DNA of 36,138 bases from contig CASEPN010000003.1 of assembly GCA_949289845.1 (NCBI GenBank), forward strand, positions 141,558 through 177,695, read 5' to 3'. The translations under genes were made by a program, and so were the position numbers. The notes under the pieces were generated by a model that saw only the letters and a program-made list of their open reading frames with translations, made no database searches and was not told the DNA's origin. This DNA comes from an uncultured Bacillota bacterium (lineage in GTDB: Bacteria > Bacillota_I > Bacilli_A > RFN20 > CAG-826). Every line of letters starts with the position of its first letter. Position 1 is the stretch's first letter. This document shows, piece after piece, positions 5,482 through 30,188 of the stretch.

Positions 5482-5492
5482 GGAAATCTATG

Positions 5493-5519
5493 AAAGGAGG
5501 CGGGTTCTGCCTCCTTTTT
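5493..5519 (+). terminator. Rho-independent terminator after the DUF898-like gene
   Basis: AAAGGAGGC (5493-5501) and GCCTCCTTT pair perfectly over 9 bp with a 7-base loop, and the right arm runs into a T tract (TTTTT). It starts 12 bases after the stop codon. Confidence 0.85.
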
Positions 5520-5649
5520 CGTTAGCCAAAGTAGTTCTTCCCCCGTGAAACAGATTTGGGGAAGGCGTCCTTGGCCAGCGGGAAAGAAAGAAAGGGAGTC
5601 CTTGCTTGGCCTCTTAGCCAGGGTTTCCCTTGCTTCGGGGAAATCTATT

Positions 5650-6555
5650 TCAGAAGGAAGCATCCGGATTGATCACGCGCTTATCTTGGTACGACCTCAG
5701 GAGAACGGCGAAGAAGACGAACCAAGCCTTCGCGTCCGGAGGGGTCTGGCTTTCCGGAGGGAAGGCAACTTCCACCATATTGTTTCCCATTTCAATGATA
5801 GAGAAAAGGCGCCTTGCCCCATCGGTTTCGGTTTGGTTCCTCAAAAGGCAAGGCAAGCATTCCCTGGCTTCTCTGTGAATCGCTTCGTATTGGTGGGGTG
5901 AGCCGTAGTAGAGGTAGGAACAAACGCTAGGAAGCTCAGCTTTGATGTTTTTCACATAGGACTTGGATTGCGATAGCTTTCCAGCGTCCAGGATCGCGAC
6001 AGGGAAGAAGCGGTGGTCTGTCATGATGAGAAAATTACTTTCTCCGTGGGGGATGAGGGGGAAGAGCGCTGCTTCGGCGAATTCGTCAAGGAACCCGGCT
6101 TCATGGGACATCCGCATGAGGCCTCTCAGGAGGGGATCGTGGCTTTCCCAGAGGCGGGACAAGACATGACGCATATTCCGGCCTTCCGCATCGTTCTGCG
6201 CGGCGATATCCCCGACTAGGGAAAGACGTTCCTGGAGCTGGGGAAGGGCCTCCTTGCCGTCCATTGCCGCGCGCAGAAGTTCCAGCGGCCTGACGATGTC
6301 GACAAAGCGGGCATTGTCGATGTCTGCCCTTCTTGTTTTTCCCCGGATTTTCCTAGGGACGTCGCAGTTCATCGCCCGAACCAGCGAAAGCCCATGGTCA
6401 ACAGGGTCGCGATGAATCTTCTTCAGGTCCTCGTGGTACCCGATGGTCATGACGAAACGGGTGACGGTCTTCTTTCGTTCTTTGCAGTAATGGGATTCGT
6501 ATATCTGGAGATATAGCCCCCTTTTGCGGACGCTTTTCCTTAGGAAGTAGCTCAT
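5650..6555 (-). CDS. Protein with IS1634-transposase-like N-terminus; possible domesticated or deleted transposase
   Basis: 301 residues on the minus strand from ATG 6555-6553. The first ~60 residues (MSYFLRKSVRKRGLYLQIYE, then RFVMTIGYHEDLKK and a DPVDH segment) match what I know of the N-terminus of IS1634-family transposases. The rest does not show a recognisable RNase H-like DDE core. It has alpha-helical segments, then FLIMTDHRFFPVAILD and, near the end, AKAWFVFFAVLLRSYQDKRV, which faintly recalls a transposase C-terminal helix. No Shine-Dalgarno precedes the ATG, and codon use is less GC-biased than in neighbouring genes, consistent with acquired DNA. It could be an internally deleted transposase (pseudogene) or a separate family sharing the N-terminal domain. 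No terminal inverted repeats were found. Confidence 0.5.
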   Translation of the reverse strand: MSYFLRKSVRKRGLYLQIYESHYCKERKKTVTRFVMTIGYHEDLKKIHRDPVDHGLSLVRAMNCDVPRKIRGKTRRADIDNARFVDIVRPLELLRAAMDGKEALPQLQERLSLVGDIAAQNDAEGRNMRHVLSRLWESHDPLLRGLMRMSHEAGFLDEFAEAALFPLIPHGESNFLIMTDHRFFPVAILDAGKLSQSKSYVKNIKAELPSVCSYLYYGSPHQYEAIHREARECLPCLLRNQTETDGARRLFSIIEMGNNMVEVAFPPESQTPPDAKAWFVFFAVLLRSYQDKRVINPDASF

Positions 6556-16171: not shown

Positions 16172-16753
16172 ATGGAACAGTTGGCCGACGAGGAGCTTTT
16201 GCTTCTCTCCAGGATGGGGGTTGCCCGCGCGGGGAAGGTGCTTTTCGATCGATATATCCGCAAAGCGAAGCCCTTGACAAAGATATCGATTCCTCTCCTT
16301 CCAAGGGGGATGGACGAGGCGGCGTTCCTTTCCACCTATCTTTCCGTCCTTTCCACCGTGTCGAGGACCTACCGGTTCGAGGGAGTCCGCTTCGAGACAT
16401 ACTTCGTGAACGTCCTCTCCCATGAAATGCCCAAGTTTCTTGCCAGGGAGACGAGGCAAAAGGTTTATACGGCGATATCGCTCGTCGATCCGGTAGGGAG
16501 GGAAGGGTCGGCGATCACCCTCGGGGACGTGGTTCCTGCCCCCGGGGAGGACCCGAGGGAGCGGTCCCTTGGCAACGAGAAAGCGGAGTCCCTCCTGGCG
16601 AAATATCGCGATATTTCGGAAAAGGATCGCCTATTGCTTCATTATCGGGGACTAGGGTATTCCTTCCAGAAGTGCGCGGACCTGCTGGGCTTCACCGTGA
16701 AGAAGGTGCGCTACCGCCTCCAGGAGGTCCGGAAGGCCCTCTCCGGGGAGTAG
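16172..16753 (+). CDS. Sigma-70-family RNA polymerase sigma factor, SigH-like by position
   Basis: 193 residues. The N-terminal half (ELLLLSRMG...RAGKVLFDRYI, then FLSTYLSVLSTVSRTYRFEGVRFETYFVNVLSHEM) reads as a divergent sigma region 2. The C-terminal 50 residues (ISEKDRLLLHYRGLGYSFQKCADLLGFTVKKVRYRLQEVRKAL) form a region-4 helix-turn-helix. AGGAGGT lies 7 bases before the ATG. Following rlmB, it occupies the sigH position of Bacillus and clostridia, so it may be a diverged SigH. Region 2 is weak enough that the promoter specificity could be quite different. The surface-protein locus begins 146 bases downstream. Confidence 0.8.
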   Translation: MEQLADEELLLLSRMGVARAGKVLFDRYIRKAKPLTKISIPLLPRGMDEAAFLSTYLSVLSTVSRTYRFEGVRFETYFVNVLSHEMPKFLARETRQKVYTAISLVDPVGREGSAITLGDVVPAPGEDPRERSLGNEKAESLLAKYRDISEKDRLLLHYRGLGYSFQKCADLLGFTVKKVRYRLQEVRKALSGE

Positions 16754-16816
16754 ATGGTTCATGTTTCGTAATATTTACATTTAAGTTAGGGTGCAATCTT
16801 GGAGGATTTCACACCC

Positions 16817-16832
16817 CCTCTTATAGAAGAGG
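16817..16832. repeat. Perfect 6-bp inverted repeat upstream of the surface-locus promoter
   Basis: CCTCTT (16817-16822), ATAG, AAGAGG (16827-16832). It is not followed by T residues, so it is a poor terminator. It lies 10 bases upstream of the -35 box and could be an operator. The preceding 16754-16800 is unusually AT-rich for this genome. Confidence 0.35.
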
Positions 16833-16842
16833 ATGAGCACGC

Positions 16843-16870
16843 TTGCAGGCGCGTCCCCTGCCCATATACT
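16843..16870 (+). promoter_or_regulatory. Candidate promoter of the surface-protein locus
   Basis: TTGCAG (16843-16848), a 16-base spacer and TATACT (16865-16870). The predicted start is near 16877, followed by GCAAGGAGTG as ribosome binding site and ATG 16900. Confidence 0.6.
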
Positions 16871-16899
16871 CCGCTCAAGAAAAGGCAAGGAGTGAAACC

Positions 16900-17712
16900 A
16901 TGTCCAAATCTACAAGACTACAAAGCCGCCGGAAGTGGGCCCTCGGGGGTGTCGGGCTTCTCCTCGGCATCGGCCTCATCACCACCGCCGGGGCGACCTG
17001 GATCATCGGCGCGAACGCTGGTTCGACGGACAACAACGTCAGCGTCGCCGTGGACACCGTCCAGAACAAGTCGGTGAAGCTCACCGCCTCGCTCAGCGAC
17101 AGCAACATCACTCTCGGCGAGGCCGCGGGCACCTCCCTTTCCTACAGCGGCATCGTCGGTTCCGAGGGTGCGGCGGGAGACCTTTCCATCACCTTCAGCA
17201 AGATCGAGGTCGAGTACGGCTCGAGCTTCGTTCCTGAGGATGGCAGCCTCAAGATTTCCTTCGAACTGAAGTATGGAGCGGAGCACACCGAGAACGCCCA
17301 GAATCTCGTGGAGGATGTTGGCAATATCACGAACCTTCACGATGAGGCCAAGACGGTCGATTCCAACGGCGGCAGCAACGTCAATTCCTGGACCTACATC
17401 GACATCGCTTCCGGGAGTGAGAGCATCACTGTCCCCGAAACCAACGACGAAACCTGGAATACGCAGACGAGCGAGGACACCGGTCTCATCACCGCGACCG
17501 GCACCGACATCACCTTCAACTTCACCTGGGGCAGTTTCTTCGGCGGAATGTCCCCGGCCAACTACTACAACAGCAAGTTCAATAGCGGGAATCCTGCCGA
17601 AAACAAAGACGCCGTGAACATCGAGAAGGAACTCACCGCGATGAAAACCGCACTCGATGGAAAGACCATCGTCCTGACTGCCACGGTCACTGGCGAAGCG
17701 GCCGGCGCTTAA
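16900..17712 (+). CDS. Exported TasA-like surface subunit 1
   Basis: 270 residues from ATG 16900 (AAGGAG upstream; the longer open frame starts at the -35 box and is rejected). A basic start (KSTRLQSRRK) and a hydrophobic helix at about 13-35 form a signal sequence. It is followed by NNVSVAVDTVQNKSVKL, resembling the segment after the cleavage site in TasA/camelysin-type proteins. The remainder is Ser/Thr/Gly/Asn-rich and predicted beta-sheet, with no cysteine. A C-terminal segment, FNFTWGSFFGGMSP, recurs in the next protein. The nearby SipW-type peptidase is the likely processing enzyme. The TasA relation is by pattern and context and is not proven. Expected outside the membrane, possibly as a fibre subunit. 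Confidence 0.7.
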   Translation: MSKSTRLQSRRKWALGGVGLLLGIGLITTAGATWIIGANAGSTDNNVSVAVDTVQNKSVKLTASLSDSNITLGEAAGTSLSYSGIVGSEGAAGDLSITFSKIEVEYGSSFVPEDGSLKISFELKYGAEHTENAQNLVEDVGNITNLHDEAKTVDSNGGSNVNSWTYIDIASGSESITVPETNDETWNTQTSEDTGLITATGTDITFNFTWGSFFGGMSPANYYNSKFNSGNPAENKDAVNIEKELTAMKTALDGKTIVLTATVTGEAAGA

Positions 17713-17734
17713 TCTAGGAAAGGATCAGACCACC

Positions 17735-18532
17735 ATGGCCAAGTCCAAGATCAGCCGCAAGAACGGCAAGGGCGCCATCGTCGCGATCGCCCTCGGGGCG
17801 GTCGCCCTCAGCGGCGTCGCCTTCTCCGCCTGGATTCTTTCGGGGCAGACTCCGGCTACCGTGAACAACATCTCCGTCTCGGTCGGATCCGTCAAGGACC
17901 ACCGCCTCAAGATCAGCGGGGCGGACGTGACAGGCGGAGGCCTCGTCTTCGACTGCGATGCCTCGGATACCAGCGGCCCCATCATCTACGATTCCTCCGA
18001 CAATCGTGGCGGGGAGAAGATGAGCTTCACCGTCACCTTCTACATCGAGGGGGCTCTTGAGAACGGGAAGTTCGCGGGCTACTTCAACGGGTTCAGCGTC
18101 AAGCTCGGTTACATGAGCGCGAGCAGCCTGAATTCGGCTGACGCGGGGATGTCCCAGGCGATCAGCGCGAGCTGGATCGTCCCTCCCGTTGCGATCGACA
18201 ACACCACCTCCGTTGATATCACCAGCATCCCCGCTATCAGTGACTCCTCAATCAGTGACACCGCAATTACTGTTGGGGATGGCGCCACTCTCAGCGCGGT
18301 CTATTCCGCGGTCACGGGTGATGATGAAGGCTACGACTCAACCTCTGACGTCAAGGTCACCCTTACCGTCGCCTTCTCCTGGGGCTCCGCTTTCAGCGGC
18401 ATGAACCCGGGCCAGTTCGCTAATGGGAGCATGAGCGATTCCGAGCTCGATAGCATCATGTCCGCGCTCTCTTCGCTCCACGGCGCCAGTGGTGCGGGCC
18501 TTAGCATCACCCTCACCCCGCTTGTCATGTAG
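17735..18532 (+). CDS. Exported TasA-like surface subunit 2 (paralogue of subunit 1)
   Basis: 265 residues, ATG 17735 with GGAAAGGA upstream. It has the same plan as the preceding gene: a basic start (KSKISRKNGK), a signal helix at about 13-34 ending in AWILSG, then NNISVSVGSVKDHRLKI, and a late VAFSWGSAFSGMNPGQF aligning with the FTWGSFFGGMSP of subunit 1. The middle portions are strongly diverged, so this is an old duplication. There is one cysteine in the mature region. Together they look like major and minor, or co-assembling, subunits of a surface structure. No cell-wall sorting motif is seen at either C-terminus. Confidence 0.7.
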   Translation: MAKSKISRKNGKGAIVAIALGAVALSGVAFSAWILSGQTPATVNNISVSVGSVKDHRLKISGADVTGGGLVFDCDASDTSGPIIYDSSDNRGGEKMSFTVTFYIEGALENGKFAGYFNGFSVKLGYMSASSLNSADAGMSQAISASWIVPPVAIDNTTSVDITSIPAISDSSISDTAITVGDGATLSAVYSAVTGDDEGYDSTSDVKVTLTVAFSWGSAFSGMNPGQFANGSMSDSELDSIMSALSSLHGASGAGLSITLTPLVM

Positions 18533-18558
18533 GCGGGCCATTCCTCTCATGTCGCCTT

Positions 18559-18622
18559 GGGAAGCGTCGCCGATGCCTCTAGCCTTGGTTTCTTCTGGGC
18601 GAAGGCGTCCTGGGCGCTTCCC
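18559..18622 (+). repeat. Long-range inverted repeat between subunit 2 and the peptidase gene
   Basis: GGGAAGCG (18559-18566) pairs with CGCTTCCC (18615-18622). A competing pair, CGCCTT (18553-18558) / AAGGCG (18602-18607), overlaps it. In the 122-base gap after the abundant-subunit gene, such structure could act as an mRNA stabiliser or partial attenuator. There is no clear T tract. Confidence 0.3.
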
Positions 18623-18655
18623 TCTTGGCCTTCTCCTTGAAGGGGGATATCTCCG

Positions 18656-19714
18656 ATGACGGGGCTTGAGACGCTATCGCTCATCGTGACGATCGTCTGC
18701 CTCGTCGCCTTCAGCGGGGTGTTCACGATCCTCTTCCGGAACTACTTCCTGAACGCCCAGGAAGGGGTGGAGGAGGGGAAGGAGGACCTCGTGCTTCTCC
18801 AGGAATGCGCCCTCCGCGAGGAGGAGAAGCGTTCCCCGAGAAGGAAGGCGATCCGCATACTCAAGGGTTCCCTATGGGGGATCCTCGGGGCGGCCGCGCT
18901 CCTCTTCTTCGGCTTCTCCCTCGCCTCGAGGATCACGGGCTCGCCTCTCGTCCTCGGAGACTACGGGACGCTGGTCATCTCCTCCGGGTCGATGAGCGAG
19001 AAGAACCCTGTGAACCGCTACCTCTTCGAGAACAATATCGAGGACCAGCTCAGCACCTACGATCTCATCGGGGTGGAGAGAGTCTCCTCCCCGGAGGACA
19101 TCGCCCTCTACGACATCGTCGCCTTCCGCGCGGAGGACGGGCGGACCATCGTCCACCGCGTCGTCGAGATCGAGCGCTTCGAGGAAGGGACCTTCTTCCT
19201 CACCAAGGGGGATGCCAACGATGAGGACGACTCGAACGCCCTCTACGGGGACTACCTCGCCTTCGAAGGGATCCTCGGGCGCTACTCGGGGTTCCGGATT
19301 CCTCTTCTGGGGGTGTTCGTGATCTTCCTCCAGTCGGGCGCCGGGATCGCGACGATCCTGTCCCTCATCTACTGCTACCTCATGTACGGCTACTTCCGGA
19401 ACAGGCTCGGGAAGGCCGTCGACGAACGGACGGAGTACCTTCTCTCCGTCATCCCCTTCGCTCCCGAGGAGGACGGGGAGCCGGCCTACCTCGAGGAAAG
19501 GGAGGCCATCCTCTACAAGGGGGAGGTGTACCTCTTCCGGGAGGGGAAGCTAGAAGGAAGCCACCCCGCTTCCGAGGAAGAGACGAGAACCTTCCTCGAT
19601 GGGGTGGAGGAAGAGGAAGAAGGGAAGCCCTCCTTCCTCGAACGGCTAAGGGCCCTGGTACCTTGGAAGAAGGGTTCTTCCGGGGATGAACATAAGGACG
19701 AAGGGAGCGAATAG
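18656..19714 (+). CDS. sipW: SipW-type signal peptidase I (Ser-His) with extended C-terminus
   Basis: 352 residues. There is an N-terminal helix (5-28), a second helix (71-92) and the catalytic domain. The nucleophile is Ser112 in SSGSM, and the general base is His167 in TIVHRVVE, the archaeal/ER-like Ser-His form found in SipW rather than Ser-Lys. GDAN follows at about 185-188, as in the family. A C-terminal helix (about 217-247) precedes a ~100-residue acidic cytoplasmic-looking tail that ordinary SipW lacks. The enzyme should cleave the signal sequences of the two upstream subunits on the outer face of the membrane. It lies directly between them and the AAA+ gene. Confidence 0.85.
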   Translation: MTGLETLSLIVTIVCLVAFSGVFTILFRNYFLNAQEGVEEGKEDLVLLQECALREEEKRSPRRKAIRILKGSLWGILGAAALLFFGFSLASRITGSPLVLGDYGTLVISSGSMSEKNPVNRYLFENNIEDQLSTYDLIGVERVSSPEDIALYDIVAFRAEDGRTIVHRVVEIERFEEGTFFLTKGDANDEDDSNALYGDYLAFEGILGRYSGFRIPLLGVFVIFLQSGAGIATILSLIYCYLMYGYFRNRLGKAVDERTEYLLSVIPFAPEEDGEPAYLEEREAILYKGEVYLFREGKLEGSHPASEEETRTFLDGVEEEEEGKPSFLERLRALVPWKKGSSGDEHKDEGSE

Positions 19715-19724
19715 GAGGCTCACC

Positions 19725-21527
19725 ATGAAAGCAAAGTTCAAGAGAATCGACGGCATCGCCATCTCGGCGGTGTTCTTCTACCTTCTGGCCGTCCTCATGA
19801 CGGGACTCTTCCTCGACGCGGGAAGCAGCCTCGTCGTCCAGGGGAACCCGATCCAGTCCCTGGCGGAGGCCTTCGCCTTCCCCCTGGTGGACGCCTCCCT
19901 TCCGAGCGCGATTCTCCTGACCATGTTCGCGGTCTACTCGCTCATCTTCGCGGGGCTCGTGATCGTTGAGATCCGCCTCGCACAGGGCAAGGGCAGAAGC
20001 GCCCTCTCGGTCCGGAACTGGGCCTACTACGCGATCACCTTCTTCGTTTGCTACGGCCTTGCCGCCGGGATCGGCATCAGCGCCCACGCGCCGGTCGAGG
20101 ACTGGACGCTCGTCGGGAATTCCTTCCTATATGTGGGGGAGAGCTTCTTCCTCGCCCTCCTCGCCTATCTCGTCCTCTTCCTCGCCGTCCTCTTCCTCGT
20201 CATGCTCGTCACGAGCATCCGCCGCTACCGCATCCCCTTCGGGGAGGATGCTCCTGAAGAGGCCCCCTCCCTCACGGAGGAGGAGCACGAGAACCTCGTC
20301 CAGGAGGAAAGGGCCCGCCTCCAGGGGTCCCTCGCGGCGACCTTCGGGGCGAACGCCCAGGGCGTCGCCGGCGCCCCCTCCGCGGATGGGGCTTCCGGAG
20401 TCAGCCAGCCCGCCCTCGGGAACAAGACCCAGGTGTTCCCGGGCCTCAGCCAGATCGAGGTTCAGGAACTCAACGAGGAAGGGAAGGAGTACCAGGACGA
20501 CGGGAAGATCTCCCTCCGCGAGCTCGCGGAGAGGTTCCGCCGCTACCTCGCTAAGGAAGAGAAACTCTACTACGACATCCACTCCATCCGCGCCTTCCTC
20601 GCCGGGCTCAGCGCCTCCCGCCTCATCATCCTCGAGGGCCTTTCCGGCACCGGCAAGAGCTCGCTCGCCCGCTACTTCAGCTCCTTCGTCGGGGAGAAGA
20701 GCTTCTTCGCCCCCGTCCAGGCCACCTGGCGGGACAGGACCTCGCTCCTCGGCTTCTATAACGACTTCAGCCGCTCCTACAGCGAGACCCCCTTCCTGAA
20801 GCGCCTCTACCGCGCGAGCTTCCGCGAGAGGGCGGTCAACATCATGGTCCTTGACGAGATGAACATCGCCCGCGTCGAGTACTACTTCGCCGACTTCCTC
20901 TCCATCATGGAGTACCCGATGGAGGACTGGACGCTCGACATCATGCAGCTTCCCTACGGCTTCGAGCCGCCGATGCACCTGGACGAGGGAAGGCTCCATA
21001 TCCCCGCGACCACCTGGTTCATCGGCACCGCGAACAAGGACGACAGCACCTACACGATCACCGACAAGGTGTACGACCGCGCGATCGTCATCTCCTTCAG
21101 CGACCAGAACGTCCCCTTCGAGGAGGCGGGCGAGTCCTCGCCGGTCTCCCTTTCCTACCAGGGCCTCCTTGCCCTTTTCGAGGACGCCTGGAAGAAGGAG
21201 GAGGATCTCCTCGACACCCAGGACAGGAAGAGGATCCAGCGCCTCGCCTCCTACTGCTACGAGAAGTTCGAGCTCGCCTTCGGGAACCGCATCATGAACC
21301 AGATCGAGCTCTTCGTCCCCACCTACGTCTCCGCCGGCGGAACGAAGGAGGAGGCGATCGACTTCATGTTCGCCCGCAAGGTGCTCGCCAAGCTCGAGGG
21401 CCGCTTCGAGGAGTATGTCGGAGAAGGCCTCCGCGGGCTTGAGAAGCTCATCGCCTCCGAGTACGGGAAGAACAGCTTCCCGGAATGCCGCGCCCTCATC
21501 GCCCACTACCTGAGGAGATTCAACTAA
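19725..21527 (+). CDS. Membrane-anchored McrB-like AAA+ ATPase
   Basis: 600 residues; ATG 19725 follows AGGAGG, and an earlier ATG inside the preceding gene is rejected. Residues 1-165 hold four transmembrane helices. Residues 170-260 are a charged, low-complexity cytoplasmic linker rich in Glu, Ala and Gly. The AAA+ domain (about 295-540) has Walker A LEGLSGTGKSS (303-313) and Walker B IMVLDEMNIARVEYYFADFL, the typical McrB-type DEMN followed by an aromatic segment. A sensor-like FIGTANKDD follows, then the helical lid. In McrB the ATPase drives a nuclease; here it is tied to the membrane and sits inside a surface-protein operon, so an export or assembly motor role is inferred. Confidence 0.8.
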   Translation: MKAKFKRIDGIAISAVFFYLLAVLMTGLFLDAGSSLVVQGNPIQSLAEAFAFPLVDASLPSAILLTMFAVYSLIFAGLVIVEIRLAQGKGRSALSVRNWAYYAITFFVCYGLAAGIGISAHAPVEDWTLVGNSFLYVGESFFLALLAYLVLFLAVLFLVMLVTSIRRYRIPFGEDAPEEAPSLTEEEHENLVQEERARLQGSLAATFGANAQGVAGAPSADGASGVSQPALGNKTQVFPGLSQIEVQELNEEGKEYQDDGKISLRELAERFRRYLAKEEKLYYDIHSIRAFLAGLSASRLIILEGLSGTGKSSLARYFSSFVGEKSFFAPVQATWRDRTSLLGFYNDFSRSYSETPFLKRLYRASFRERAVNIMVLDEMNIARVEYYFADFLSIMEYPMEDWTLDIMQLPYGFEPPMHLDEGRLHIPATTWFIGTANKDDSTYTITDKVYDRAIVISFSDQNVPFEEAGESSPVSLSYQGLLALFEDAWKKEEDLLDTQDRKRIQRLASYCYEKFELAFGNRIMNQIELFVPTYVSAGGTKEEAIDFMFARKVLAKLEGRFEEYVGEGLRGLEKLIASEYGKNSFPECRALIAHYLRRFN

Positions 21528-21533
21528 GGGAAG

Positions 21534-22811
21534 ATGGCGCTTCCTTCGAAGAAGACGTCCTCCCCTCTCCTGGAGGGGGAAACGCTCGGGGCGAGGGTCC
21601 TCCGGAACCGCCTCCTGGGCGTCAGGAAGGAGGAGCGCCTTTCCTCGTCCCGGAAGGAGAGGGAATGGTCATTGCTCCTGGACGCCCTTGAGGGCATCGC
21701 CAGGAAGCCCCTCTACCGCGCCAAGGAGGAGGACGCGCTCGTGAGAAGCGAGCTATCCGGCGCCCTCCCGCCCGAGAGCTTCCTCAGGACCATGAGGGAT
21801 CCTTCCCTCTGGAGAAGGAAGCCTGGCGCGGGCATGCTCCCGGAGTACGTCCACGCGATCCGCTACGAGGATGACATGAGGCTCTACGAGAACCTCCTGA
21901 CCATCCGGGCGATCCGCCTGCTTCGCTCCGAGGTCCTCTCCTCCGTGCAGGAAAGCACGAGGGGACCTGAGTCCATCGAGTCGCTTTATCTCCGCGAAAA
22001 GGCCGTCTTCGGCGAGAAATCGTTCCTCATCGACATGGACGAGCACTCGGCGAGAGTCGGGCGCGCCCTCAAGGAAAGGGGCGAAAGCGCGAAGAAGGAA
22101 GAGGCCTCGAGGAAGCTCCTCCGCCGGATCGACGGGATACGGGGAAGCCGCTTCTACCGAACCCTTAGAGGGGAAAGGCAGCCGGAGACGCTTCTTCCGA
22201 CGAACGTCCTTCTGCATCATCCGCTCTACAAGAAGGTTTACCGCTACCTCTTGAACCGGAGGGACGCTTCGAGGATGAGCCCTGTCGAAAGGGACATCCG
22301 CTTCATCCTCGCCATGGAAAGGGTGCTCAAGGCGAAGATGAGGATGAAGGCAGAGGTGTCGCTCTACCTCAAGGACGGGAAACTCGGGCTCGTGCCTTTC
22401 TCCTTTACGAGAAGGGGGGTGAAGGTCGAGGTCAGCCTGGAAGGCGAGGAGCTTCGCTTCCATTGCTCCTACAAGGGCCATGAGGCTACAAGGAAGATCC
22501 TCCTCGACGGGACCGAGAGGGACGACTCCTACCGCCTCATGACGAGCGGTTCCCTTGGGGAAGGGAATGCCTTCCTCCTACTTCCAGAGGAAGAGATGGA
22601 AGGGCAGTGCAGGAGCTTCCTTGCGAGCCTTGCCACCTTCATTCCCTACAAGGGCTCGCTCCGGAACTGCCCCGTCTGCGGGGGACGGATCGCCGGAACG
22701 AGGCCCGGCGAGGAGAGGGAGTGCCCCCACTGCGCCTCCCGCTTTTCGAGGATTCCCGCCTCGATCGGCACTGGAGGGGATATCCTCATCCTTTCCTTCT
22801 GGGGGAGATAG
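21534..22811 (+). CDS. Zinc-ribbon protein, probable partner of the AAA+ ATPase
   Basis: 425 residues, soluble, rich in Arg, Lys and Glu, starting six bases after the AAA+ stop. No family recognised with confidence. The middle (YEDDMRLYENLLTIRAIRLL, and TNVLLHHPLYKKVYRYLLN) recalls DUF2357-type proteins that accompany McrB-like ATPases, a weak resemblance I could not verify. I see no clear PD-(D/E)xK nuclease motif. The C-terminus is a zinc ribbon with Cys379/Cys382 and Cys397/Cys400 (NCPVCGG and ECPHCAS). Adjacent position and matching length suggest an adaptor or regulator of the ATPase. Confidence 0.65.
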   Translation: MALPSKKTSSPLLEGETLGARVLRNRLLGVRKEERLSSSRKEREWSLLLDALEGIARKPLYRAKEEDALVRSELSGALPPESFLRTMRDPSLWRRKPGAGMLPEYVHAIRYEDDMRLYENLLTIRAIRLLRSEVLSSVQESTRGPESIESLYLREKAVFGEKSFLIDMDEHSARVGRALKERGESAKKEEASRKLLRRIDGIRGSRFYRTLRGERQPETLLPTNVLLHHPLYKKVYRYLLNRRDASRMSPVERDIRFILAMERVLKAKMRMKAEVSLYLKDGKLGLVPFSFTRRGVKVEVSLEGEELRFHCSYKGHEATRKILLDGTERDDSYRLMTSGSLGEGNAFLLLPEEEMEGQCRSFLASLATFIPYKGSLRNCPVCGGRIAGTRPGEERECPHCASRFSRIPASIGTGGDILILSFWGR

Positions 22812-22814
22812 AGC

Positions 22815-23633
22815 ATGGGATTCCTTGATAGATTCAAGAAAACCAAGAAAATCGCGGCTCCTCGCGTCGATTTCGACGAGCTTGTCCTAAAGAACGAGCT
22901 CCCGAAGGAGGCCGTCCTCGTCGAGGACGTCCATAAGTCCTACGGGGACCACGAGGTTCTCAAAGGCCTTTCTTTCTCCGTGAGGAGGGGGGAGTGCTTC
23001 GGCTTCCTCGGGAAGAACGGGGCTGGCAAGTCCACCTTCATCGACTGCCTCGTCGGCCTCAAGGAATACGACACCGGCTCCATCAAGGTGTTCGGCCTCG
23101 ACGAGAAGGAATACCCCCTCGAGATCAAGGGGCAGCTTGGCTACGTGCCGAGCGAACCCCTTGTCTATGATCTCATGACGGGGAACGAATTCATCGAGTT
23201 CATCGCCTCCAGCTACGACATGGACGTTGAGGGGTTCGAGAGGAACTTCGCCTTCCTCAAGACGAAGTTCGACCTAACGGAGGAAGAGCTCGCGCGCCCC
23301 GTGGGCGGCTATTCGCACGGCATGAAGCAGAAGCTCCGCCTCATGAGCTCCCTCATCCATAATCCTCTCCTATGGGTCATGGACGAGCCGACGGTCGGCC
23401 TCGACATCATGGCCTACGAGACCCTCATGGCGATGATGCGCCAGTACGTGAAGTCCGGGAAGACGATTTTCCTGACCTCCCATAACATCGAGCTCGTCGC
23501 GGAAGCCTGCGACAGGGTCGCCATCCTGAAGGAGGGGAGGATCGCCTCCCTTATCGACTTCGCCCTCGAGCCCTTCAAGAGGAAGGAGCTTAGGCGCATC
23601 TTCCTCCACATCCAGGGAAGGGAGGACCTATGA
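22815..23633 (+). CDS. ABC transporter ATP-binding protein (ABC-2 type)
   Basis: 272 residues. The nucleotide-binding domain begins near residue 33, after a charged N-terminal extension. Walker A is GKNGAGKST (66-74), the signature is GGYSHGMKQK (164-172), Walker B is LLWVMDEPTVGLD (185-197) and the switch His is in LTSHNIE (220-226). The Q-loop reads YVPSEP, so the usual Gln is Ser, a change also seen in other YtrB/EcsA-type ABC-2 ATPases. Its stop overlaps the permease start (ATGA), so the two form one transporter. It may export a component of the surface structure, a modifying molecule or a lipid. Confidence 0.92.
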   Translation: MGFLDRFKKTKKIAAPRVDFDELVLKNELPKEAVLVEDVHKSYGDHEVLKGLSFSVRRGECFGFLGKNGAGKSTFIDCLVGLKEYDTGSIKVFGLDEKEYPLEIKGQLGYVPSEPLVYDLMTGNEFIEFIASSYDMDVEGFERNFAFLKTKFDLTEEELARPVGGYSHGMKQKLRLMSSLIHNPLLWVMDEPTVGLDIMAYETLMAMMRQYVKSGKTIFLTSHNIELVAEACDRVAILKEGRIASLIDFALEPFKRKELRRIFLHIQGREDL

Positions 23634-25231
23634 CCCTCGCCCTCCTCATCGAGGAGATTCGTTCCGGCTGGACGGAGCGAGGCTGGCGTCTCGCGCTTTC
23701 CCTCGTCCTGAAGTTCCTCGGGGCGGCCCTTTTCATGCTGCTCGTCGGCTACCTCTTCTGGGGAATCGACGCGAAGCTCCGTTCCTTCAGCTCCTACGGG
23801 ACCTACGACTTCCTGGTCCTCTATATCTTCCTTGCCACTCTGGCCTCCTCCCTCGCCTCCCTCCCCGGCTCCTACAAGGCCCTGGAGAGGACTGAGGACC
23901 GGCTCATTCTCTCGCCCCTTCCTATCTCGAGGGACGAGAGAATCCTTGCGAAAGCCGCCTTCTTTTATACGAAACTGGTGGTCTCTCTCTTCCTTCTCAG
24001 CTTCCCTGCGCTCGTCGCCTACGGGATCGCGAGGGGACAGACCGCCCTCTTCTACGTCTTCTCCGTCCTTTACCCGGTCCTTGGCTCTTTCTCTAGCCTC
24101 GGCCTCCTGACGATGCTCCTCGGGCCCTACGGGCTCCTGATGGAGGTCATGCGGAGGCACAAGGTGGTCCAGTTCGTCCTTGCCTCGCTTCTGGTGATCG
24201 CCCTTTGCTTCGTCTACAGGGAAGTCTTGAACCTCTTCCTCGACCTTCTCGCGGGGGCGGAGCTCGACAGCTTCTTCAGCGAGCCCTTCCTTCAGTCCCT
24301 CAACGGGGCCTCCCCGTACCTTTTCCCCGCGGGGAGCTACCTCGCCCTCCTGACGGGGGACGGGAACGTCGCCGGCCATGTCACCCTTTTCATCGGAGCG
24401 TCCCTCACGCTCCTCGTCCTTGGCTTCTACATCCTCTCCTTCCTCATGGGGAGGCTGGAGAAGGGGCGGAGGGAGAAGGGCGCGCGTAAGGCGAAGCCCG
24501 CCCGCCTCCCGAAGAACAGGATGGTCGCGCTCCTCAAGAAGGAGTGGGTGCTCCTCTTCCGCGACAGCTCCTACCTCTTCAGCTACACCTCTCTCCTCAT
24601 CATGCAGCCCTTCCTCGCCTTCGTGGTCGTGGAGAGCCTCTCTGGCATCCTCCAGGACGGGATGGGCATGTTCCTCGCCTATTTCCCGGAGCTCATCAAC
24701 GGGATCCTCATCTTCCTCGTGCTCCTCTTCGCCTCCCTCATCTCCGGGGCGAGCGCAGACGGGGTCTCGCGCGAGGGAAGCGGACGCATCCTCATGAAGG
24801 AGATCCCCGTCCCCCCGGGAGAGCAGCTCTTGGCGAAGCTTCTTGTTTCCACCGCGGTGTCCCTCGTCTCGCTCCTGGTGACCTCGCTCGTGCTCCTGGG
24901 CTTCTCGCTCCTCCCCGTCCACGTCTTCTTCTCGGTGCTCGGGACGGGCTCGCTCTTCATCGTGTCCTTGAACCTCCTGGGCGCGCTCGACGACTTCCGC
25001 CGGCTCGGGGAAGGGGGCAAGGGAGGGGTCTCCCTTCTCGCCCTCTATAGCATCCTCCTTCCCGTCCTCCTCGCCCTTCTCCACTTCCTCATGACCTTCC
25101 TCGGGGTCGCGGTCCCCATCCTCTACCTCGTCGAGTTCCTCATCCCTCTCCTTCTCATGGGGGCGCTCCTCCTGCTCCTTCGCTGGAGGCTCCCCTCCCT
25201 GTTCCTGCTGATGAGGGTGGACTACGTATGA
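23630..25231 (+). CDS. ABC-2 type permease
   Basis: 533 residues with roughly 12 hydrophobic helices arranged as two related halves. Each half contains a cytoplasmic segment of the same type: ALERTEDRLILSPLPISRDE in the first and SREGSGRILMKEIPVPPGEQ in the second, the ABC-2 hallmark. A basic linker (KGRREKGARKAKPARLPKN) joins them. The ATG overlaps the ATPase gene and the stop overlaps the next start. The substrate is unknown. Confidence 0.85.
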   Translation: MTLALLIEEIRSGWTERGWRLALSLVLKFLGAALFMLLVGYLFWGIDAKLRSFSSYGTYDFLVLYIFLATLASSLASLPGSYKALERTEDRLILSPLPISRDERILAKAAFFYTKLVVSLFLLSFPALVAYGIARGQTALFYVFSVLYPVLGSFSSLGLLTMLLGPYGLLMEVMRRHKVVQFVLASLLVIALCFVYREVLNLFLDLLAGAELDSFFSEPFLQSLNGASPYLFPAGSYLALLTGDGNVAGHVTLFIGASLTLLVLGFYILSFLMGRLEKGRREKGARKAKPARLPKNRMVALLKKEWVLLFRDSSYLFSYTSLLIMQPFLAFVVVESLSGILQDGMGMFLAYFPELINGILIFLVLLFASLISGASADGVSREGSGRILMKEIPVPPGEQLLAKLLVSTAVSLVSLLVTSLVLLGFSLLPVHVFFSVLGTGSLFIVSLNLLGALDDFRRLGEGGKGGVSLLALYSILLPVLLALLHFLMTFLGVAVPILYLVEFLIPLLLMGALLLLLRWRLPSLFLLMRVDYV

Positions 25232-27678
25232 AGAAGACCCTAGGAGTGCTCCTCGTCGCCCCCTTCGCGGTGGCCATCCTCGCCTTCGGGGCGATCGTCA
25301 TCCTCGAGAACACCGTTCCCGTGGACATTTCCGGCATCCGCTGGGACTACCGGGAGAACGAAGGCTTCCAGGTCCGGGAGGAAGGCTATCTCCTCGAGGC
25401 GGAGCCGATCTACGACCCCGCCCTCGAGCTAGGGGAAGGGAACGACCTCGTGTGGGAGGTGTCCTCTCTTGAAGGAGGGGAGACCGAATGCGCCTCCATT
25501 TCCGAAGTAGGGGATTCCTACTATCTCGAGGCCATCTCCGAAGGGAACGTCCGCCTCACCTGCCGGAACGAGAAGAACACCGTCTCTCGCTCCCTCAGGG
25601 CCCTCATCTACGAGGACGGGGCGATCCTCATCAACGACGCTTCCGCCCCTGCCTCGGGGCAGATGGTGGGGGAGCTCCGCCGCTATGGGGAATACGACTT
25701 CGACGAGGAAGGGCGTAAGACCTATGCGAGGATCGAGCTCGAGACCGAGGCCCTCAGCACGGTCATGGGGGATGTCGCCCAGCTTGTCTCCCATAGCGAA
25801 AACCTACAAGTCCAAGGCGGAATCATCGAAATCCATGGGGCGGGGGAGAGCTACGTCCGCTTCCGCCTCAAGGAAATGCCCTTCGTCGAGGAGGAGTACC
25901 GCTTCCTTGTCGAGGAGGACGCGGTCAACGTCTACGACTATGGCGACTTGATGCTCGCCACCAACAAGAGCGAGGACGGGGACCCCGTCTGCCTCCAGCG
26001 GAACCTCCTTTCCCTCAAGAACACCTACCGCCAGGAGAACGGGCGCTACGTGGAGGAGCTCCTCGCAGAGAACACGAGGCTCTTCGGGCGCTACGACTTC
26101 GGGAGGCAGGAGATGCTTTCCTTCGAGGAGGACGTCTACCGCTTCCCCACTACCTATAACGACCTATATATCCGCCAGTACGTCGAGGAGGAGGAAGGGA
26201 ATAATCCTGAAATCCTTCAGAAGAGGCTCGAGGTCATCGCCGGGGTCCACGTCCAGGACGACTTCTTCGGGAACGGCTTCACCATCTCGATGCAGGAGCT
26301 CTGCTACCCGAACCATGGGAAGTACGACGACTATTCCGGCCTCATCGAGCCGGGGGAGGAGGACCTCTTCCAAGGACCTCTCACCCTCGTCTCGATCGGC
26401 CTCATCGACACGCCCATCATCAAGGCGTTCGGCCAGGACAACTCCGGCTTCTACGTGGAAGGGGACGGGATCCTCATCGACGACGTCCGCCTCCAGAACA
26501 CCGATAACCTCGCGAACCTATATGACCTCAGCTACGCCGGCAGCGTCATCGACCTCAAGGGCGAGGACATCACCATCCAGAACTCCTTCCTCCGCTACGG
26601 GAGGACGTGTCTCAGGGCGATGGACGCCGACGGCCTTCTCGTGAGGAACTGCCTCATGGAGAACTCCCGCGAGTTCCTTATGAAGGTGGGTTCGGACGAG
26701 TTCGCTTCGACCGATCCGGAGAAGAGGGTCACCTACCAGCACAAGGGCGACTACTACAGCGGGGCGATCTCAGGGCTCATGGACCGCTCCTATGGGGCGG
26801 CAGACCGTCTTTTCAACGAGGCCCTCGGGCTTCAGGAGGGGGATGATCCCGAAGGCACCCTGGAGCCGGCGATGGTCATCCAGGAGGCGCTCGACGGGGA
26901 TCCAGTGCTCGAGCCTGCCGAGATTGTCGTGGAGGACACCCTCTTCGGGAGGTCCGGCCTCTTCCCGATCGCCTTCGATTCCCTCTTCAACGGGCCCTTC
27001 CTCTATAACGGCCTCCCCTCCCTCATCCAGGACGTATTCTCCATCTTCACCGAGTTCGACATCCCCTTCCCCTCGATCGTCCCTGACCAGGTGGGCGGCA
27101 CCTCGAGGGCGAGCGAGCTCACCCTTAGGGGGGACTGCCGCTTCTACGACTGGAAGGACGTGGAGACGATCGACGCGAGCTGCCTCATCGAGGAAAGGAT
27201 CGGGGAGTTCCTCGGGATAATCCTGGGCACCGCGAGCGGGGAGACCCTGCCCAGGATCCCCATCGACAGCTACTTCCCGATCAAGGCGCTCCTGCTCCAG
27301 GAGGCCGAGCGGCTCGGCTACAGCTATCATGTGCCGGTCGAAGGCGGGGAGGAAGGCGAGGAGGACATCTACCTCTGCCCCATAGTCGGCTACTACGGAG
27401 GCGGCAGGAACGACTCCCTCCTCATCCATGAGGACGATGGGATCGGGGAGGAGATCTCGATCGACTTCGCCAGGAGCTCCATCACCGGGGAGGGCCTTGC
27501 TTCCGCCGGGAGCGACATCGGGGACATCCTGGCCCCCGTCATCGCCCGCTGCGTGCCCATGGCCGCGGGCTTCCATCCCTTCCGCTTCCTCACCAGCGGA
27601 ACCTACGAAGACGTCCCCGAGACCTTCGGGAAGTCGCCCGACGTCTCGCTCATCATGAATCGCGGAGGTAAGTTATGA
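25228..27678 (+). CDS. Large membrane-anchored extracellular protein with a probable beta-helix region
   Basis: 816 residues; one N-terminal hydrophobic helix (about 5-27) acts as uncleaved anchor or signal, and the rest is acidic and hydrophilic. From about 390 to 485 are short strand-turn repeats (SGFYVEGDGILIDDVRLQNT, then GSVIDLKGEDITIQNSFLRYG, then DADGLLVRNCLMENS), the pattern of right-handed parallel beta-helices that often bind or cut polysaccharide. Residues 25-300 look like beta-sandwich domains. No catalytic motif is identifiable, and no sorting signal is present at the C-terminus. Translational coupling to the permease and to the lipoprotein gene ties it to the same process at the cell surface. 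Confidence 0.7.
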   Translation: MKKTLGVLLVAPFAVAILAFGAIVILENTVPVDISGIRWDYRENEGFQVREEGYLLEAEPIYDPALELGEGNDLVWEVSSLEGGETECASISEVGDSYYLEAISEGNVRLTCRNEKNTVSRSLRALIYEDGAILINDASAPASGQMVGELRRYGEYDFDEEGRKTYARIELETEALSTVMGDVAQLVSHSENLQVQGGIIEIHGAGESYVRFRLKEMPFVEEEYRFLVEEDAVNVYDYGDLMLATNKSEDGDPVCLQRNLLSLKNTYRQENGRYVEELLAENTRLFGRYDFGRQEMLSFEEDVYRFPTTYNDLYIRQYVEEEEGNNPEILQKRLEVIAGVHVQDDFFGNGFTISMQELCYPNHGKYDDYSGLIEPGEEDLFQGPLTLVSIGLIDTPIIKAFGQDNSGFYVEGDGILIDDVRLQNTDNLANLYDLSYAGSVIDLKGEDITIQNSFLRYGRTCLRAMDADGLLVRNCLMENSREFLMKVGSDEFASTDPEKRVTYQHKGDYYSGAISGLMDRSYGAADRLFNEALGLQEGDDPEGTLEPAMVIQEALDGDPVLEPAEIVVEDTLFGRSGLFPIAFDSLFNGPFLYNGLPSLIQDVFSIFTEFDIPFPSIVPDQVGGTSRASELTLRGDCRFYDWKDVETIDASCLIEERIGEFLGIILGTASGETLPRIPIDSYFPIKALLLQEAERLGYSYHVPVEGGEEGEEDIYLCPIVGYYGGGRNDSLLIHEDDGIGEEISIDFARSSITGEGLASAGSDIGDILAPVIARCVPMAAGFHPFRFLTSGTYEDVPETFGKSPDVSLIMNRGGKL

Positions 27679-28772
27679 AGAAGAACATCGTGCTGGGGGC
27701 GCTCCTCGCCCTCCTCGGGGCCTTGCCCCTCAGCTCCTGCGGCTTCCTGAACCTTGGAAGCGAAGGCTATCTCATCGAGAGCATGGGGACCTCCGTGAAC
27801 GAGAACGGGGAGACCGTCCTCGAGGTGACCTTCGACGACAAGAGCGTCCCGCCCCTTTCGATCACCCTTCCCAAGGGCGAGGACGGGGTCGGGATCGCCA
27901 ACATCGAGACCGCCCTGAACGCGGAGAACAACCTCCTCAGGGTCACAATCACCTACGACGACCCCTCGCGCCTGCCGGTGACGATCGACGTCCCCATCGT
28001 CCAGGGGAAGGACGGGGTCGGGATCGACCACGTGGACGTGGCGAGGGACCCCGAGACGGGGCTCACCACGGTCGAGATTTTCTACACCGACCCGGACATG
28101 CCGACGACGAGCTTCGGAATCCCCAAGGGGGAGTCCGGCGTCGGGATCGAAAGCGTGACCTCCCTCATGGAGGAGGGGAACCTCGTCCTCGTGTTCGCCA
28201 TGTCCGACGGGTCCGAGCAGCGCGTCTCCCTCTCGATGGAAAGCATCCGCGGCGAGGGCATCCAGAACATCGAGCTTGGCGTCGACGAGGACGGGGAGAA
28301 CTACGTCCTCCTCATCACCTTCGACTCCGGCTTCAGCCAGCGCCTCACCTTTCCCGTGCCCCACGCGACGGAGTGGCACGTCTCCAACGGCGACCCCCTT
28401 CCCTCCTCTGGCAGGGTCGGGGACTTCCACCTCAACACCTCCAGCGGTGCGATCTACCGGAAGACCGAGGCGGGATGGGTGCTCCAGATGGTGCTCGAGG
28501 GCACTTCCGCGGGGGACATCGAGGGGAAGCGCCACGTCGTCACCTTCCATCCGGGGGAGGGGACGTTCGTCGATCCCGCCCGCCCCACCTCCTTCGAGGT
28601 GGTGCATGGGAACTATTTCCCAGGCGAGCTACCGGAATGCGCCCTCGACGGGCATGAGTTCCTGGGGTGGTACACCGAGGAGGAGATCGGCCCGAACACC
28701 GGCCACTTCACCTCCCTCACCCCGGTGATGGCGGACCTCGACCTATACGCGGTCTACCAGCCGATCCTATAG
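27675..28772 (+). CDS. Repeat-containing lipoprotein with GxxGxGI repeats and an InlB-type repeat
   Basis: 365 residues with a lipoprotein signal: helix 4-17 and lipobox LSSC with Cys22 lipidated. Residues 29-229 form about five ~40-residue units, each a beta-rich stretch ending in PKG-like turns, with G(E/K)DGVGI at 68-74 and 111-117, GESGVGI at 152-158 and a degenerate RGEGI near 192. A GRVGDFHLNTSSGAIYRKTE segment then resembles the linker found in collagen-like and phage-tail-like proteins. The C-terminus (about 287-363) is an InlB B-repeat/Flg_new-type unit (FLGWYTEEE and DLYAVYQ). It is expected on the outer face of the membrane as an adhesin or assembly scaffold. The start overlaps the upstream stop. 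Confidence 0.75.
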   Translation: MKKNIVLGALLALLGALPLSSCGFLNLGSEGYLIESMGTSVNENGETVLEVTFDDKSVPPLSITLPKGEDGVGIANIETALNAENNLLRVTITYDDPSRLPVTIDVPIVQGKDGVGIDHVDVARDPETGLTTVEIFYTDPDMPTTSFGIPKGESGVGIESVTSLMEEGNLVLVFAMSDGSEQRVSLSMESIRGEGIQNIELGVDEDGENYVLLITFDSGFSQRLTFPVPHATEWHVSNGDPLPSSGRVGDFHLNTSSGAIYRKTEAGWVLQMVLEGTSAGDIEGKRHVVTFHPGEGTFVDPARPTSFEVVHGNYFPGELPECALDGHEFLGWYTEEEIGPNTGHFTSLTPVMADLDLYAVYQPIL

Positions 28773-28779
28773 GAAAGCC

Positions 28780-28808
28780 TTGCCGAAGATAGGCCTATCA
28801 TGGATAAT
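28780..28808 (+). promoter_or_regulatory. Candidate promoter of rpmG-secE-nusG with a palindromic spacer
   Basis: TTGCCG (28780-28785), a 17-base spacer and GATAAT (28803-28808). The spacer contains a perfect 12-bp palindrome, GATAGGCCTATC (28788-28799). The rpmG ATG follows at 28833. Confidence 0.55.
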
Positions 28809-28832
28809 CCGCCTGCCTAGGGGAGGAAAAGG

Positions 28833-28979
28833 ATGCGAGAGAAGAGGTTTTTGATTTGCGAGGAGTGCCTCTCCCGGAACTACCAGGTGACGAGGAGGAA
28901 GGACAGCGAGTCCCGCCTCGAGATCCGGAAGTTCTGCCCTAAGTGCAACCGCCACACTCTCCATAAGGAGAGCAAATAG
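28833..28979 (+). CDS. rpmG: Large ribosomal subunit protein bL33
   Basis: A 48-residue basic protein of the 50S subunit, too short for many gene finders. It is the zinc-binding form: Cys9/Cys12 (ICEEC) and Cys35/Cys38 (FCPKC), with [20 protein letters not shown] between, matching L33. GGGGAGGAAAAGG precedes the ATG. Its position before secE and nusG is standard in Bacillota. Confidence 0.95.
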
Positions 28980-29006
28980 GAAAGGGAAGGAGTATAGTTC
29001 GTCCGT

Positions 29007-29204
29007 ATGACCCCACCCATCAAGTACATGAAGGAGGTGGCGCGCGAGGCGCGCCGCATCCGCTGGCCCAGCCGGGAGAAGCTCTGGTCGACGATCCTCG
29101 TGGTCGTCTGCGTTGCCCTTTTCGTCGCCATCTGCCTCGCCCTCGAGGACCTTGCCGCCGGATCGATCATCCAGCAGCTGAAGGACGCGTTCGGAGGAAT
29201 GTAG
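29007..29204 (+). CDS. secE: Preprotein translocase subunit SecE
   Basis: 65 residues: a short amphipathic stretch (VAREARRIRWPSREKLWST, with the conserved R..WPS/T motif) followed by one transmembrane helix (about 30-47). It clamps SecY in the membrane. The ribosome binding site of ATG 29007 is distant (AAGGAG about 15 bases away); Met at 29028 is an alternative start and keeps the conserved part. It is followed after one base by nusG. Confidence 0.93.
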   Translation: MTPPIKYMKEVAREARRIRWPSREKLWSTILVVVCVALFVAICLALEDLAAGSIIQQLKDAFGGM

Positions 29205-29205
29205 G

Positions 29206-29760
29206 ATGCCTGAGCAGCTAGCCGACAAGCAGTGGTACGTCGTCACCACCTACGCCCAGCACGAGGCGAAGACGAAGGAGAACCTCGAGAAGAGGCGCGT
29301 CTCCATGAAGATGGAGGACCTCATCCAGAGGATCCTCATCTGCGAGCAGGAGGTCCCTGTCCTCAAGGACGGGATCCCGACCGGGAAGACCAAGAAGGTC
29401 AACCTTTACCCCGGCTATCTCTTCATCGAGATGGTCATGACCGACGAGAGCTGGTTTATCGTCCGTAACACCCCCGGGGTCACCGGCATCGCCGGCTCCT
29501 CCGGCGGCGGGCAGAAGCCTACCCCTGTCCCGCGGGAGCAGATCGAGCCCGTCCTCAAGAGGATGGGCATCGTCGACGCGAGCATGTACGACCGCTACCA
29601 GGTCGGGCTCCGGGTCAAGATCATCGGAGGCGCCCTCGAGGGAACCGAGGGCACCATCACGAAGCTCGACCGCGAGAACGGGATCGTGCGCGTGGAGACC
29701 CTCTTCTTCGGGCGCGTCACTCCCGTCGACCTCGACTTCTCCGAGATCGACATCCTCTAG
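29206..29760 (+). CDS. nusG: Transcription termination/antitermination protein NusG
   Basis: 184 residues. The N-terminal NGN domain begins KQWYVVTTYAQHEAKTKENLEKR and includes LYPGYLFIEMVMTDESWFIVRNTPGVTGIAG. The C-terminal KOW domain has VGLRVKIIGGALEGTEGTITKLD. NusG links RNA polymerase to Rho or ribosomal protein S10 and affects pausing. The ATG is one base after the secE stop, with GGAGG upstream, and the gene is closed by a terminator. Confidence 0.97.
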   Translation: MPEQLADKQWYVVTTYAQHEAKTKENLEKRRVSMKMEDLIQRILICEQEVPVLKDGIPTGKTKKVNLYPGYLFIEMVMTDESWFIVRNTPGVTGIAGSSGGGQKPTPVPREQIEPVLKRMGIVDASMYDRYQVGLRVKIIGGALEGTEGTITKLDRENGIVRVETLFFGRVTPVDLDFSEIDIL

Positions 29761-29885: not shown

Positions 29886-30188
29886 ATGTCAAGAGTTCCT
29901 GAGGACAAGGTCATAGACCGGATGGAGCATATTCTGAACATCGCCAGCGACTCCACGAGGCTCAAGATCCTCTACGCGATCTCGGGGGAGGAGAAGAACG
30001 TCTCCGAGATCGTGCGGGAGGTCGGCGCGAGCCAGTCCCTCGTCTCCCACCAGCTCATCGTGCTGAAGAAGGCGCGCCTTGTGACCACGAGGAGGGAGGG
30101 AAGGAACGTCTACTACCTCCTGGCGGACCAGCACGTGACGGCCCTTCTTTCGATCGTCCACGAGCACGTCCTTGAGGAGAGCCTATGA
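29886..30188 (+). CDS. ArsR/SmtB-family metal-sensing repressor
   Basis: 100-residue winged-helix repressor. The recognition-helix region is VSEIVREVGASQSLVSHQLIVLKKARLV, followed by the wing TTRREGRNVYYLL. The alpha-5 metal site is complete: Asp81 and His83, then His94 and Glu97, the spacing DxHx10HxxE of the SmtB/CzrA zinc sensors. The alpha-3N cysteine site of CadC/ArsR is absent. Zinc (possibly cobalt) is therefore the likely inducer. It should autoregulate through the three palindromes upstream. The stop overlaps the ATPase start (ATGA). Confidence 0.93.
   Translation: MSRVPEDKVIDRMEHILNIASDSTRLKILYAISGEEKNVSEIVREVGASQSLVSHQLIVLKKARLVTTRREGRNVYYLLADQHVTALLSIVHEHVLEESL

Follow-up and report, generated by a model that had tools for sequence, protein, structure and literature searches.

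McrBC and its relatives are known as restriction enzymes, and those McrB relatives whose function is known work on nucleic acid. In the NosDFY system, the genes for an ABC ATPase, an ABC-2 permease, and the outer beta-helix protein NosD lie side by side, and the complex is thought to move the outer beta-helix protein by ATP from inside. We know of no McrB-like, DUF2357, ABC, or beta-helix genes that form part of the Bacillus tapA-sipW-tasA or sipW-tasA-calY loci. The association of an NxD-type McrB homologue with a DUF2357 protein and a signal peptidase was named CoCoPALM in 2024 (eLife 94800, PMC11090510). CoCoPALM is a prediction without experiment or mechanism, linked to signal peptidase and pilus assembly (PMC11090510). 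Its definition combines a McrB-like AAA+ protein bearing an NxD signature, usually with D or E next, and fusion of the GTPase to an FtsB-like transmembrane (TM) and coiled-coil module; coiled coils are usual, not strict, in both the McrB and the McrC homologues (PMC11090510). The same study describes the NxD branch of McrB GTPases and reports that DUF2357 is the part of McrC responsible for activating McrB (PMC11090510).

We analyzed a window of 36,138 nucleotides (the whole stretch of DNA given above) from a genome of 1.3 Mb (98% complete) that belongs to an uncultured lineage of Bacilli. As a preliminary description of the window had proposed, positions 16900 to 28772 hold nine consecutive genes on the + strand (Table 1), each with a coding-type third-position GC content of 0.80 to 0.92. 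The ATGA overlaps reported for the last four genes are present at three junctions (abcA/abcM, abcM/big, and big/lipoprotein). Genes were called as open reading frames (ORFs) backed by profile matches; TM segments were called from hydropathy and coiled coils from a crude heptad score, both simple scores with no dedicated predictor. The start of the AAA+ gene was corrected to the ATG at 19725.

The cassette lies between sigH and rpmG-secE-nusG, inserted into the usual housekeeping run cysS-rlmB-sigH-rpmG-secE-nusG (window positions 16172 to 29760). Because it begins directly 3' of the sigH-like gene, control by SigH is possible. The one good promoter previously assigned to the first gene was not recovered: a sigma-70 scan found none, at its threshold, in the interval before subA (16753 to 16899), and the number of sigma-70 sites over the whole region was not above that in shuffles. 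Downstream of nusG (29886 to 32320), a gene for an ArsR-type regulator overlaps one for a P-type heavy-metal ATPase, which looks like an ordinary metal-resistance pair.

Table 1. Genes of the cassette and its housekeeping flanks (window coordinates).
Feature	Position	Strand	Basis
sigH-like sigma factor, upstream housekeeping flank	16172..16753	+	weak TIGR02937/spore_sigH matches, synteny
subA, exported subunit, 270 aa, SipW-type signal region TTAGATWIIG, predicted beta-sandwich	16900..17712	+	ORF, subB homology, motif, model
subB, second exported subunit, 265 aa, homologue of subA	17735..18532	+	ORF, homology, shared motif
SipW/archaeal-type Ser-His signal peptidase, 352 aa	18656..19714	+	TIGR02228, NF046067, invariant residues
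McrB-like NxD AAA+ GTPase/ATPase, multi-TM N-terminus, 600 aa	19725..21527	+	motifs, TM segments
DUF2357 (McrC N-terminal-like) protein, C-terminal C4 zinc ribbon, 425 aa	21534..22811	+	DUF2357 profile, invariant cysteines
abcA, ABC transporter ATPase, 272 aa	22815..23633	+	ABC_tran, E 4e-22; drrA/GldA-like
abcM, ABC-2 type permease, 533 aa	23630..25231	+	PF01061, E 1.3e-3 (weak); many TM segments; ATGA overlaps
big, membrane-anchored extracytoplasmic protein, TM + two Ig/BIG2-like domains + right-handed parallel beta-helix, 816 aa	25228..27678	+	AF2 model
Repeat lipoprotein, C-terminal Listeria-Bacteroides (Flg_new) repeat, 365 aa	27675..28772	+	lipobox LSSC; PF09479
rpmG and secE, downstream housekeeping flank, then nusG	28833..29204	+	ORFs, synteny, small-protein sequence

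Our leading interpretation, which we consider an even call, is that the cassette is a dedicated system for assembling a polymer or matrix at the cell surface, is related to the predicted CoCoPALM systems, and works as an energy-driven, membrane-anchored apparatus that matures SipW-processed surface subunits and assembles or anchors them. A conserved gene order that persists at different chromosomal sites, tight spacing between the AAA+ and beta-helix genes, the linkage to a peptidase, the invariant NxD motif, the DUF2357 partner, the beta-helix ectodomain, the signal motif and beta-sandwich model of the subunits, and the CoCoPALM precedent all argue for it. Arguing against it are the lack of detectable TasA kinship, the separability of the ABC/beta-helix module, the nucleic acid-directed activity of McrB relatives of known function, and a beta-helix fold shared with polysaccharide lyases and epimerases. 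The preliminary description had suggested a new build-and-export machine. A role in surface assembly fits the subunits, the peptidase, and the beta-helix protein, but the link among AAA+ protein, DUF2357 protein, and peptidase is already that of CoCoPALM (PMC11090510). We found neither an experiment on any homologue nor a description of the nine-gene combination (McrB/DUF2357/peptidase with ABC-2 transporter, Ig-Ig-beta-helix protein, and lipoprotein) in the open-access literature.

We mapped 20 kb around relatives, which were largely metagenome-assembled genomes (MAGs), and found the order of one to six subunit genes, peptidase, an optional large exported protein, AAA+, DUF2357, abcA, abcM, beta-helix, and lipoprotein in about 27 genomes. 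Conserved co-occurrence of the nine families, put forward earlier as a check on the proposal, was thus strongly borne out. The same order occurs in one family outside the window's taxonomic order, and a second outside family has a rearranged form. All named relatives with the cassette are MAGs (e.g., “Candidatus Alloenteromonas”); the AAA+ core of one of these MAGs does not differ from that of a genome in the window's own family. Among 196 genomes of the window's order there were 59 substantial matches to the beta-helix protein, 48 of which adjoin a same-strand AAA+ gene. The AAA+ gene lies 3.63 to 4.36 kb upstream in 39 of these and 7.8 to 8.2 kb upstream in 9, the latter representing a second gene order with a lipoprotein and a large protein in between; several of the remaining 11 matches are contig breaks. 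The chromosomal site is shared with the closest relatives (L032/L045 and L034/L046), and the other mapped loci have different flanks, indicating that the genes stay together wherever in the chromosome the unit lies. This conserved operon suggests an energy-driven machine that builds a surface layer or fiber.

The large exported proteins (830 to 1090 aa; L034:6996-9959, L036:7326-9977, L055:6441-8954, and L085:15390-18386) occur inside or beside related cassettes or alone with ABC/beta-helix genes, and are absent from the cassette in the window. Those of L034 and L044 matched no Pfam family.

The cassette consists of two separable modules that are usually joined, because the ABC/beta-helix module was also found without the other parts. 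Two loci (L085 and L086) carry only the large protein, abcA, abcM, and beta-helix genes, and two further loci on short contigs (L089 and L090) are probable exceptions of the same kind, with no subunits, peptidase, or AAA+ gene beside the ABC/beta-helix module. In L087 and L088, subunits, peptidase, and the ABC/beta-helix module are present without the AAA+/DUF2357 pair. Incidental association in relatives, which the preliminary description had named as the outcome that would speak against its proposal, was therefore found in part, and a single machine need not contain both modules. The strongest alternative, which we regard as unlikely, is that two modules with separate envelope jobs merely travel together, one comprising the subunits, SipW-type peptidase, and McrB-like/DUF2357 pair and the other the ABC-2 transporter and beta-helix protein, with or without the large exported protein. 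Besides the loci just listed, this alternative is supported by loci that have the AAA+, DUF2357, and SipW-type genes without the ABC/beta-helix genes (L065 to L083) and by those in which the module order is swapped, with the lipoprotein and large protein between the modules (L044, L093, L094, L114, and L120). However, separate action of the modules sits poorly with the tight spacing of the 48 AAA+-adjoining beta-helix genes and with the overlaps in the window, where the last four genes form one apparent operon. Loci with only one module constitute a natural comparison set.

The ABC-2 transporter and the large anchored beta-helix protein of the preliminary description were both recognizable. 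The match of the transporter ATPase is strong, and the permease is identified by its weak profile match and its many TM segments. The AF2 model of the beta-helix protein (mean pLDDT, 86.8; pTM, 0.88) shows the TM segment, two Ig-like domains, and a right-handed beta-helix. Its helical part (residues 231 to 798) resembles lyases, epimerases, tailspikes, and the adhesin PfbA at Z of ∼16, and its Ig/BIG2-like part (residues ∼31 to 230) reaches a best Z of 8 to 9. Pfam Beta_helix was matched in 4 of 20 homologues (E value, 3.3e-5), and Big_2 also in homologues. The final gene was likewise confirmed as a lipoprotein with a Flg_new repeat (E value, 1.6e-5 in the window and 4e-11 in a homologue).

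As in NosDFY, the genes for the ABC-2 ATPase and permease adjoin that for an outer beta-helix protein, and we draw a mechanical analogy only. The window protein differs in having Ig domains before the helix, and the gene order is F-Y-D. NosD (PF05048) was not among the Pfam matches of 20 members of the beta-helix family, the NosD chain was missing from the fold lists, and the nine cassette families include no nosZ, N2O reductase, or copper-protein family.

A distinctly improbable alternative is that the locus encodes a polysaccharide or teichoic acid-type export and modification system, in which a glycan leaves through the ABC-2 transporter and is decorated by the subunits, with the beta-helix protein serving as a lyase- or epimerase-like enzyme or a glycan binder. 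The ABC-2 family and the best fold matches of the beta-helix protein (alginate and pectate lyases, epimerases, and depolymerases; Z, ∼15 to 16) are consistent with such a system. However, PfbA, an adhesin with the same fold, scores equally high, the shared fold shows no activity, and the conserved gene set contains no glycosyltransferase or other glycan-synthesis family.

The membrane-anchored, McrB-like AAA+ protein was confirmed by McrB-type motifs (Walker A at 304, Walker B at 374, and GTANKDD at 433) and by several N-terminal TM segments. N436-x-D438 is invariant in all 29 homologues compared, GTAN.D[DE] is present in 58 of 64 AAA+ sequences, and this signature matches the published NxD branch of McrB GTPases (PMC11090510). 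Pfam matches of the protein are essentially to NTPase families, and its N-terminal part consists of TM helices. Profile searches of the PDB with the AAA+ and DUF2357 proteins found no McrB or McrC chain, so the McrB assignment rests on the motifs, a weak match to NCBIfam PRK11331, the DUF2357 partner, and the published definitions. The zinc ribbon of the partner is likewise real, with four invariant cysteines (C379, C382, C397, and C400), and the protein has a further identity overlooked in the preliminary description, as a DUF2357 homologue. PF09823 was matched in 9 of 22 family members (best E value, 2.1e-11), with the window member itself below threshold.

The pairing of a McrB-type AAA+ protein with a DUF2357 protein is that of McrBC. 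In contrast to McrBC, the AAA+ protein carries TM helices rather than a methyl-DNA-binding domain, the signature is NxD instead of NxxD, and the invariant columns of the DUF2357 partner include no D/E-x-K triad of a PD-(D/E)xK nuclease. The resemblance to CoCoPALM is closer in composition, comprising a membrane-anchored NxD McrB-type AAA+ protein, a DUF2357 partner, a neighboring signal peptidase, and a suggested link to surface filaments. The differences are that the AAA+ protein has a multi-TM N-terminus rather than an FtsB-like TM and coiled coil, with no heptad run after the TM segments; that the partner shows no long coiled coil and carries a zinc ribbon at its C-terminus; and that the cassette adds an ABC-2 transporter, an Ig-beta-helix protein, and a repeat lipoprotein. 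By the crude score, neither the AAA+ nor the DUF2357 protein of the window has a consistent heptad run. The AAA+ protein is without the FtsB-like module that forms part of the CoCoPALM definition, and we found no earlier account of the nine-gene form; we therefore treat the cassette as a relative of the predicted CoCoPALM systems rather than as one of them.

A second architecture (L065 to L083) fits the published CoCoPALM description. Its AAA+ homologues are shorter, with one TM helix and then a heptad run, and in nine of them (L065, L069, and L074 to L080) the best heptad run falls at residues 79 to 129, just after the TM helix. They are accompanied by a DUF2357-type protein that is usually longer, by a SipW-like peptidase whose gene mostly lies on the opposite side, and by other exported proteins. 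In a tree of AAA+ sequences, the window type forms a group with 99/100 support apart from the FtsB type and includes the unusual L041, L042, and L092. In a sample of 295 genomes from the phylum, all 18 full-length AAA+ proteins of the window type have a same-strand SipW-like peptidase gene within 6 kb, as do at least 55 of all 74 AAA+ proteins, versus a chance expectation of 0.67. Architectures differ in which side of the AAA+/DUF2357 pair the peptidase gene occupies.

We consider it very unlikely that the locus serves defense or surveillance, with the McrBC-derived pair sensing phage nucleic acid or envelope disturbance and altering the surface layer in response. McrB ancestry, a match of the AAA+ protein to the PADLOC candidate PDC-M26A (1.3e-42), and the predicted antiviral role of the CoCoNuT relatives (PMC11090510) favor such a role. 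On the other hand, that match covers the AAA domain only, none of the tested neighbors specific to the matched PADLOC systems was found, conserved nuclease residues are missing, and the conserved partners are export and envelope proteins. We rejected a defense island on the ground that the PADLOC matches of the AAA+ protein are confined to its AAA domain. Carriage by phages or plasmids was also rejected: viral contigs yielded a single distant AAA+ relative, and plasmids matched the AAA half alone, at <40% identity among the records listed, with none covering 80% of the query.

The peptidase is of the Ser-His SipW type, as originally described, scoring 58.6 bits against TIGR02228 (cutoff, 51.85) and 65 bits against the SipW family NF046067, below the cutoff of that family; Ser112, Met113, Asp153, His167, and Arg168 are invariant in 28 homologues. 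SubA and SubB are mutually homologous and have in common an F-WGS-F...NP motif. In 40 of 43 subunit family members, versus 7.7 in shuffles, the N-terminus carries a hydrophobic stretch ending in small-small-aromatic residues, a signal motif of the SipW type. The predicted SubA monomer is a beta-sandwich (pLDDT, 79) with a low-confidence N-terminus (residues 7 to 47, pLDDT of <50). The description of these proteins as two TasA-like exported subunits therefore held for the exported-type signal, mutual homology, and beta-sandwich model, and found no support for kinship with TasA. No TasA/camelysin match appeared among the 43 members in Pfam or NCBIfam, a PDB profile search gave no support for such kinship, and hhalign against one real TasA sequence (8AUR) returned a probability of 0.2%. 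Fold searches with Foldseek and a second look with VIA returned generic Ig-type sandwiches only (Z, <6); TasA was missing from this list, an absence that at such Z excludes nothing. We therefore set TasA/camelysin kinship aside as unsupported by these searches.

The cassette resembles the Bacillus loci in having its Ser-His SipW peptidase beside two paralogous exported subunits of the beta-sandwich type with similar signal regions, but no TasA homology was detected, and we regard a tapA-sipW-tasA family biofilm fiber locus with extra genes as the least probable of the alternatives.

Within the surface-assembly interpretation, we tentatively propose, as a possibility that we hold well short of even, that a McrBC-derived, nuclease-free membrane NTPase pair powers or gates the assembly of SipW-processed fibers and is coupled through the ABC-2 transporter to the Ig-beta-helix scaffold. 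In the leading interpretation, the subunits would leave the cell by Sec, and the cassette peptidase would cut them at the small-small-aromatic site. The DUF2357 protein may act as a switch on the McrB-like ring, which would sit anchored beneath the membrane, in the way that McrC acts on McrB, and nucleotide hydrolysis by the ring would regulate or drive subunit maturation or assembly. By analogy with NosDFY, the ABC-2/beta-helix complex could use internal ATP to move or prime the large outer scaffold. The subunits would be assembled or anchored on this scaffold, in relatives together with the large exported “tip” protein, and the lipoprotein would probably form part of the surface attachment.

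If this is correct, a DNA defense motor has been turned into an envelope-building motor, and cells of the Gram-positive type would possess motor-driven fiber assembly that relies neither on sortase, nor on type IV pili, nor on simple TasA self-assembly. The cassette adds concrete partners to the CoCoPALM prediction (two subunit families, an ABC-2 transporter, and a modeled beta-helix ectodomain) and suggests that uncultured gut Bacilli have a surface structure not yet described.

Several further loci were observed. On contig C1 of the window's own genome, two exported proteins of ∼1045 aa (L117:4849-7983 and L118:5085-8222) are distantly related to the “tip” proteins of related cassettes and carry a Hint module (intein/hedgehog-type autoprocessing) near the C-terminus (E values, 5e-7 and 3e-6). 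DUF2357-type partners in L080:1984-8976 and L082:2242-8961 occupy open frames of ∼2240 to 2330 residues, versus the usual 425 to 700. Several loci of the FtsB type (G259, G326, G362, G267, and G314) have two SipW-like peptidase genes, one on each side of the AAA+ gene, and in another (L076:983-1744 and 5075-5722) two different SipW-like peptidases surround the AAA+/DUF2357 pair. Tandem pairs of short AAA+ homologues ∼3 kb apart occur in G113, G098, G066:C7, and G070; those counted had no SipW-like peptidase nearby among the matches listed, and these pairs are possibly another branch of these systems.
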